Below the pieces are notes generated by a model. The model worked only from the letters and a program-made list of their open reading frames with translations, was not told the DNA's origin and did no database searches. 36,095 bases of DNA, from the NCBI GenBank assembly GCA_038843675.1, contig JAWBRV010000012.1:1-36095 (forward strand), given 5' to 3'. This stretch comes from Candidatus Bathyarchaeia archaeon. Its GTDB lineage: Archaea > Thermoproteota > Bathyarchaeia > 40CM-2-53-6 > CALIRQ01. Below are positions 30,684-31,853 of the stretch, one piece after another. A program made the position numbers and the translations under genes. How positions within the stretch are numbered: position 1 is the stretch's first letter; each line of letters starts with the position of its first letter.

Positions 30684-30902
30684 TCATTGGGGCCTTCCGC
30701 AAATTATGCAGAACCTAGCGACGCCAGGGATCTTCGCGCCGCAATGGATGCAGAACTTCCCATCGCCTACCGATTTGGGCCTCCTCGCCCCCCTATGCTT
30801 TGCCGCCCCGCTCTCTCTCGCCCGCTCGACCATCGCCGCGCCGGCCCCCGCCCCCAGCTCTTCCCCGTGGCCCTTCGATTGAGCCTCCTCATCGGATCGC
30901 AT
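30684..30902 (-). CDS. Small zinc-ribbon protein
   Basis: A 72-residue protein with a flexible, charged, Ala/Gly-rich first 45 residues and a C-terminal zinc ribbon: CIHCGAKIPGVARFCIICG, the common double-CxxC form found as an appendage on many archaeal proteins. No other domain is visible. ATG 30902 is followed upstream by a TATA-like tract at 30933-30945. It ends 86 bases from the convergent symporter gene. Confidence 0.65.
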   Translation of the reverse strand: MRSDEEAQSKGHGEELGAGAGAAMVERARESGAAKHRGARRPKSVGDGKFCIHCGAKIPGVARFCIICGRPQ

Positions 30903-30971
30903 CCTGATCCCACACCGTTTTGGGTGGATCCGGATAAAAATATGTCCCTACTCCCTCCCCCTAAATTCCCA

Positions 30972-30984
30972 TAAGTTTATATTC
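30972..30984 (+). promoter_or_regulatory. TATA box of the CxxC-x17-CxxC gene
   Basis: The tract taagtttatattc lies about 27 bases before the left arm of the leader hairpin, so the transcript should begin at or near the hairpin's base. Confidence 0.5.
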
Positions 30985-31007
30985 ATGAAGCCATCATCAA
31001 AGCTTGG

Positions 31008-31043
31008 TATACGGGATTTCTGCGAGCAGCGAAATCGCGTATA
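31008..31043 (+). other. Strong 5'-leader hairpin
   Basis: TATACG-G-GATTTC pairs with GAAATC-G-CGTATA: twelve base pairs, one G-G mismatch and a 10-base loop in which TGC and GCA may pair again. It lies between the TATA box and a GGTGAG ribosome binding site of the gene at 31069, and would form the very 5' end of that mRNA. It may protect or regulate the message; as DNA it is also operator-like. Confidence 0.7.
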
Positions 31044-31068
31044 ACCAATCAAGAAGGTGAGAAAAGGA

Positions 31069-31218
31069 ATGGGTTACGAAAGGCGTGGATTCGGCCCTAG
31101 GACTATGTACAAGATAAAGTGCTCGGACTGCGGCGCCGAAGCCGAAGTTCCATTCAAGCCAACAGAGGGAAGGCCGGTCTACTGCAAGGAATGTTATCAA
31201 AATCATAGGAAGCGTTGA
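31069..31218 (+). CDS. CxxC-x17-CxxC zinc-binding protein
   Basis: A 49-residue protein with a basic, Gly/Arg-rich head (MGYERRGFGPRTMYKIK), then CSDC, exactly 17 residues, CKEC and a basic tail YQNHRKR. This is the archaeal CxxC-x17-CxxC domain, taken to bind zinc and probably nucleic acid; its function is not known. ATG 31069 has an AAGGTGAGAAAAGGA ribosome binding region ahead. The gene is single, with a 64-base leader and T-tract terminator, which suggests a small, well-expressed protein. Confidence 0.85.
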   Translation: MGYERRGFGPRTMYKIKCSDCGAEAEVPFKPTEGRPVYCKECYQNHRKR

Positions 31219-31244
31219 TACTTCCCAATTGGCGATTATTCTAT

Positions 31245-31260
31245 TCCATTTTTTATCCTT
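31245..31260 (+). terminator. T-tract terminator after the CxxC gene
   Basis: A run of six Ts within tccattttttatcctt lies 27-42 bases past the stop, in the short gap before the convergent aldolase gene. Confidence 0.5.
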
Positions 31261-31853
31261 TAATATCCAAACGGTTTAGCTGCGAATTGACTCAGGAGGG
31301 CTATCTTGGCGCTCTCCTCCAATAGCTCGGCCAAATCCTCAGCGCTCCGGAGGCTCGATCCGGCGGCTATGATCCCATGGCCGGATAATATGGCCGCGCA
31401 AACCCCCGGATCGGAGAAAGCCTCCTTGACCAATCTTGCCATTGCATCGCTTCCATCCTCCGCCGGCGGTATGACTGGGACCATCTTGAGGATCCTCTTC
31501 GAATGGACCGTTTTAAGCGGTATCATCTCGCCCTTGACGGCATAGGCAGTGGCGAAGGGGGAATGGTAATGGACGATCCCACCGACATCCTTCCGAACCT
31601 CGTATATCTCCAAATGTGCCCTCAAATCCCTTGTGGGCCTGCCGCTTCCCTCAACCAAATTCCCGTGACCATCAACGACTAAGAGGTCATCCCCCCTCAA
31701 CTCGAAGAGGGACATCCCGCTCGGCTTCACCAAGAAGAGCCCGCCCCCCAGCCTCATGCTGATGTTCCCGCCGGAGGAGACTTGCATGCCTGCCAAGAAC
31801 GCCCTTCGACAAATCCTTACGAACTCCCTTCGCTCGTTGGCCCAAGTCGCCAT
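31260..31853 (-). CDS. Class II aldolase/adducin-family protein
   Basis: A 197-residue enzyme of the class II aldolase (L-fuculose-phosphate aldolase/RhaD/AraD) family. Zinc ligands are visible: HYHSPFATAYAV (His-x-His) and the later SGHGIIAAG His; the phosphate-loop stretch SSGGNISMRLGGG is near residue 26 and KPSGMS near 44. The general acid/base Glu and Tyr are less clear. Substrates could be phosphorylated or free sugars, or it could be a decarboxylase or 5-deoxyribulose-type aldolase. A GAGGGG site six bases before ATG 31853 favours that start over ATG 31859. Downstream of the MBL-fold gene by 18 bases, so the two form an operon. Confidence 0.88.
   Translation of the reverse strand: MATWANERREFVRICRRAFLAGMQVSSGGNISMRLGGGLFLVKPSGMSLFELRGDDLLVVDGHGNLVEGSGRPTRDLRAHLEIYEVRKDVGGIVHYHSPFATAYAVKGEMIPLKTVHSKRILKMVPVIPPAEDGSDAMARLVKEAFSDPGVCAAILSGHGIIAAGSSLRSAEDLAELLEESAKIALLSQFAAKPFGY

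Follow-up and report, generated by a model that had tools for sequence, protein, structure and literature searches.

The Escherichia coli ompA mRNA carries a stabilising stem-loop at its 5' terminus, and the coat-protein operator of phages R17/MS2 is a short hairpin with an unpaired A that lies near the start codon. In bacteria, small stress proteins such as cspA have structured leaders that switch folds (PMC5378194). Few cis-regulatory RNAs are known in archaea, as noted in PMC7247131, where leaders of ribosomal proteins figure as candidates for autogenous control. Here we describe a hairpin that lies directly before the gene of a 49-residue CxxC-x17-CxxC protein in a Bathyarchaeia genome of 1.36 Mb, of which the window analysed (36,095 nucleotides) is a single contig, and compare it with these systems.

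Results

A bulged hairpin upstream of a small zinc protein gene

The first-pass annotation of the window described a 12-base-pair stem with one mismatch at 31008-31043, a description that is exact, with 11 of the 12 pairs being Watson-Crick. That stem is real, but its extent was underestimated; five pairs further out (UUGGU/ACCAA) had been overlooked, as had the fact that A31043 is unpaired, and the full hairpin, which spans 31004-31048, also includes a G-G mismatch (31014/31037) and a small loop (Table 1). None of 200 dinucleotide shuffles of the hairpin sequence was equally stable. Within the contig such stability is not exceptional: 239 of its 24,034 46-nucleotide segments are as stable, i.e. 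about the 1% level, so that the window sequence alone does not exclude chance, and five distinct inverted repeats of like quality occur in the 36 kb. The significance of the hairpin comes from its conservation, not from its stability.

Table 1. Features of the hairpin locus in the window
Feature	Position	Strand	Basis or remarks
TATA-like promoter box TTTATATT	30976..30983	+	sequence; matching spacing in relatives
RNA hairpin, predicted to be 5'-terminal	31004..31048	+	RNAfold -21.6 kcal/mol, z -6.1; covariance model R1 E 1.4e-4
Conserved basal stem, 5' arm	31006..31012	+	consensus AGUAUAC; GGUAUAC in the window
Variable middle and apical stem	31015..31036	+	RNAfold; relatives pair with different sequence
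Basal stem, 3' arm including the invariant unpaired A	31039..31046	+	consensus GUAUAACU; GUAUAACC in the window, A31043 unpaired
Ribosome-binding site AGGTGA, unpaired	31055..31060	+	sequence; fold of 31004-31110
Gene of the 49-aa CxxC-x17-CxxC protein	31069..31218	+	TIGR04272 and PF23477 (zf_Tbcl_2) profile matches

The clear ribosome site that had been claimed downstream of the stem is indeed present (AGGTGA, 31055-31060, with ATG at 31069). When the next 61 bases are added (fold of 31004-31110 at 37 C), the hairpin persists and the ribosome site is open; in 35 of 36 relatives, those in which such a site was recognised, it lies 7-12 nt beyond the hairpin. An intrinsic terminator or attenuator is not supported: the stem is followed by UCAAGAAGGUG, in which no U run was found.

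A leader that senses temperature, zinc or a metabolite through a switch of fold, thereby exposing or hiding the ribosome site, would have precedents in bacterial stress-protein leaders such as that of cspA (PMC5378194). The site is unpaired, however, no alternative conserved pairing was seen, and we found neither a conserved pocket beyond the stem nor a matching Rfam family; such a sensor is improbable. The first-pass suggestion of temperature sensing finds no support in this lineage as regards masking of the ribosome site, and a masking RNA thermometer was rejected here on the basis of the unpaired site in the 37 C fold.

The encoded protein is assigned to the CxxC-x17-CxxC/zf_Tbcl_2 family by both profiles, TIGR04272 (E 2.8e-21; 74.9 bits against a curated cut-off of 36) and PF23477 (E 1.3e-20; 73.2 bits against 27), and the family is present in 44 of 61 genomes, the host genome counted. 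A fold search returned no match under E 1 and was uninformative, and a PDB sequence search gave weak matches only, with LIM domains at the top. RGG repeats, which as RGG-rich tails are typical of RNA-binding proteins, are absent from the window protein; RGG-rich homologues occur in Methanosarcina and also behind hairpins of Woesearchaeota/Nanoarchaeota (L184 and L106/L180), where the tails stand before or after the zinc domain. Divergent to the 49-aa gene, a 72-aa open reading frame on the minus strand (window positions 30684-30902) has two CxxC-type pairs at its C terminus (FCIHCG...FCIICG) and is possibly a second small zinc-ribbon protein.

Conservation and covariation of the hairpin

Among the upstream regions of 67 loci, an element of the form AGUAUAC-stem-GUAUAAC(U/C)A recurs a few nucleotides ahead of the ribosome site; in 21 aligned leaders its ends are nearly fixed while the middle is divergent. 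A covariance model, R1, was built from 22 leaders; 85.6% of cells are paired in its named structure versus 31-43% when the structure is slid, and 11 of its 16 pairs have changed on both sides. For 40 model-aligned sites (39 distinct) 87.1% of cells are paired versus 28.7-47.1% when slid, both-side changes again occur in 11 of the 16 pairs, and none of 500 shuffles reached the covariation score, with the proviso that this alignment was fitted to the structure and that the shuffles ignore kinship, so that the pairing figures lean favourable.

The basal stem, AGUAUAC/GUAUA-A-CU, is nearly invariant across sites, and the unpaired A is present in all 40. Double changes within it were observed at pairs 8-94 (U-A to C-G, in one Bathyarchaeia copy and two DPANN copies), 9-93 and 4-99, and the stem is weakened in a few sites (L006, L060, L044 and L004); 13 of 36 motif leaders do not reach z = -2. 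Applied to whole alignments, RNAalifold recovered the basal stem alone, since neither the length nor the location of the middle stem is constant. The middle was therefore also followed by a control that uses no alignment, in which the 5' half of one leader's middle is joined to the 3' half of that of another family. These chimeras fold more weakly than the native sequences (mean -3.2 versus -5.5 kcal/mol; Wilcoxon p 4.6e-6, an optimistic value given that the leaders are related) over 34 of the 36 leaders, L037 and L058 being excluded for their long inserts. In 9 of the 34, no more than 5% of chimeras matched the stability of the native leader, and in several (L060, L069, L184 and L007) the chimeras were equally or more stable.

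The first-pass annotation had pointed to compensatory changes in relatives as a check on the stem. Pairing is kept with changes on both sides, and no loss of pairing was seen; the RNA structure is conserved with covariation, as looked for in an autogenous leader. The hairpin is real, larger than first described, and conserved, and it very probably acts as a cis-element at the RNA level.

The same data bear on a DNA operator, i.e. an inverted repeat at the transcription start on which a protein dimer would sit and repress transcription. Archaeal repressors often bind at the transcription start, and the repeat does coincide with the predicted start and has outer arms conserved in sequence. The spacer between the arms, however, ranges from 23 to 74 nt among motif leaders, leaving no fixed dimer geometry and no fixed half-site spacing, the additional base is invariably confined to the right arm, and pairing of the middle stem persists through changes in its sequence. 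We regard an operator as very improbable.

Position relative to the promoter

In the model the stem begins at 31006, and the first T of TTTATATT precedes that base by 30 nt, which places the predicted start at ~31004-31008. A TATA-like hexamer is found 28-33 nt upstream of the first stem base, mostly 30-31, in 36 of 36 leaders, where letter shuffles lead one to expect ~1.5, a count that omits four later-found sites and uses a hexamer list compiled after the sequences had been viewed. Archaeal TATA boxes lie ~26-27 bases before the start. Given this usual distance and the constancy of the TATA-to-stem spacing, the hairpin probably opens the mRNA, in agreement with the earlier claim that the stem begins at the predicted transcription start.

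Distribution and gene specificity

R1 recovered 40 distinct sites from ~900 archaeal genomes, distributed over the Bathyarchaeia, a single Brockarchaeota genome and a scatter of Woesearchaeota/Nanoarchaeota. Each of the 40 immediately precedes a CxxC-x17-CxxC gene (TIGR04272/PF23477), the product of which is the putative regulator, and no site was found before any other gene in the genomes scanned. The individual scans covered 61 genomes (27 sites in 15 genomes), 256 Bathyarchaeia genomes under stricter settings (24 sites in 12 genomes, none new), 13 genomes of named loci (7 sites in 6), 281 genomes from the class to which a Woesearchaeota genome belongs (3 sites, two new), 398 genomes of the phylum (3 sites, none new as far as coordinates show), 12 genomes around the Brockarchaeota genome (1 site) and 36 genomes of one DPANN family (8 sites, four new); these sets overlap, and ~900 is the number of distinct genomes. 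In the largest scans, 14-23 candidates were scored per genome and weak sites were missed, so that the negatives give upper bounds on absence, not proof; two same-genus sites from the 61-genome scan drop out of the stricter 256-genome scan.

Genomes with several gene copies repeat the hairpin before several of them, with 6 sites in G007, 4 in G021 and 3 in G019. One homologue (L069, G021:C151:344-485) appears as two overlapping half matches in different frames and looks frameshifted, with its leader kept. In the host genome no second site was found even at E 10, rRNA included where assembled. With this single site, and with no sites before other genes in the other scans, neither a look-alike in ribosomal RNA nor a wider regulon was found.

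A search of window positions 30900-31300 against Rfam 15 (4227 covariance models) gave one chance-level lncRNA match on the opposite strand, and the leaders of seven relatives gave no match up to E 1. In the open-access literature we found no paper under the names of the protein family (CxxC-x17-CxxC etc.), and among the matches listed there for archaeal leaders and structured RNAs were ribosomal leaders (PMC7247131) but nothing on this gene; an earlier description may exist in subscription journals or preprints.

Homologues lacking the motif and other leader hairpins

Many homologues have no such hairpin, among them those behind 21 f3-family leaders and several of the G019 paralogues. No conserved fold was found in the f3 leaders (RNAalifold 0.0 on the 21), and the motif seems to have been lost in this family, two copies of which (in G036) retain it. 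Within the same order, most genomes of one family lack the hairpin, which is therefore not indispensable. Most of the f3 leaders L012-L021 and L024-L031 share GGAGGTGTACTAGGCCG before the start, and a conserved TCTATAA or TTATTAA stretch in this set may be promoter.

Structure is stronger in R1-motif leaders (median z -2.08, n=32) than in the leaders of other genes from the same loci (-0.18, n=108; p 6e-7), and homologue leaders without the motif exceed those genes only slightly (n=102, p 0.07; n=81, p 0.009 when the f3 group is omitted). A hairpin at the predicted first base was found in 15/29 R1 leaders, 11/17 of other Bathyarchaeia, 19/41 of other archaea, 1/3 of the f3 group and 5/26 control genes, these denominators being the leaders with a well-placed TATA-like box, out of 31, 25, 56, 21 and 107, respectively; the test is a rough one in that start codons were guessed and several folds extend into coding sequence. 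The counts suggest that 5' hairpins of other sequence recur before the CxxC-x17-CxxC family.

Two other leader hairpins were noticed. Methanosarcina homologue leaders (L092, L094, L097, L100, L107 and L123) have a different short hairpin, CCGC-loop-GCGG, the 3' arm of which runs into the ribosome site and could mask it. The Hadesarchaea leaders L129, L131 and L135 seemingly have a long hairpin with AGAUACG/CGUAUCU as its closing stem, both strands of which have changed in L135 (GGAUACG/UGUAUCC).

The counts of first-base hairpins are relevant to 5'-end protection, the main rival to autogenous control, according to which paired first bases would block 5' processing and 5'-to-3' decay, so that the message of an abundant small protein lasts longer with no specific ligand. 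Such a role would fit a stem that starts at the first base predicted from the TATA spacing in 36 of 36 sites checked, and the first-base hairpins of unrelated sequence in homologues without the motif (30 of the 58 that have a well-placed TATA box, f3 omitted, versus the 5 of 26 control genes). Protection does, however, leave unexplained why the basal-stem sequence is fixed, why the unpaired A is always present (40/40) and why the motif is restricted to a single gene family in the scanned genomes, and we consider it rather unlikely.

Discussion

The best overall explanation of these results, to which we give about an even chance, is a cis-acting RNA element with a specific partner, likeliest the encoded zinc protein. 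Recognition is favoured because the seven basal pairs and the unpaired A are nearly fixed, whereas protection alone need not keep letters, and control by or for the gene's own product is favoured by the exclusive association of the motif with one gene family. Together with the RGG-rich tails in some relatives, these properties make autogenous control the leading mechanism for an element acting at the RNA level, a proposal that in our estimation falls just short of an even call. The hairpin would open the mRNA of the small zinc protein and act in cis, its basal stem and unpaired A being recognised by a protein, most likely the encoded one. Excess protein would bind the leader of its own mRNA, 7-12 nt upstream of the ribosome site, and there impede the small ribosomal subunit or make the message shorter-lived; with the protein engaged elsewhere, the leader would be free and translation could proceed.

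Several points weigh against autogenous control. The 5' arm could be conserved because transcription starts there, and the 3' arm merely because it pairs with the 5' arm; further, many homologues are without the hairpin, the window protein has no RGG repeats and gave no informative fold match, some basal stems are weakened, and 13 of 36 leaders fall short of z = -2.

More broadly, and tentatively, the hairpin may represent an undescribed class of archaeal cis-regulatory RNA, defined by a first-base hairpin with an invariant unpaired A that is recognised by the encoded zinc protein (in some lineages an RGG-zinc protein). On this possible view the autogenous circuit would be common to Bathyarchaeia, a Brockarchaeota genome and DPANN, and lineage-specific hairpins elsewhere would do the same job for a pan-archaeal family. 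The hairpin has a simple form, accompanies a single gene family and occurs in widely separated archaeal lineages. It offers a testable handle on that family; if the protein binds it, both a target and an RNA-binding role become open to experiment. It is a good candidate for an undescribed self-control switch in uncultured archaea.

The element can be compared with several known systems. Like the autogenous ribosomal-protein leaders, among them the archaeal S15, eL15 and L4 candidates (PMC7247131), it was found by comparative genomics as a structured RNA that precedes, and is restricted to, the gene of a small protein associated with RNA, which for the zinc protein is putative. It differs from them in that the gene is non-ribosomal, the structure is a simple bulged hairpin predicted at the very 5' end, and no second site was found in the host genome with the model. 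With cspA-type cold-shock leaders and RNA thermometers it shares its position in the leader of a small, often multi-copy and possibly RNA-binding protein, although here the leader is short and the ribosome site unmasked. The R17/MS2 operator, too, is a short hairpin close to a start codon and has an unpaired A; unlike that operator, the archaeal hairpin does not overlap the ribosome site, and its partner is putative. The E. coli ompA stem-loop also occupies the first bases of its mRNA, a position predicted for the hairpin described here, which, in contrast with ompA, has a fixed basal-stem sequence with an unpaired A and is limited to one archaeal gene family.
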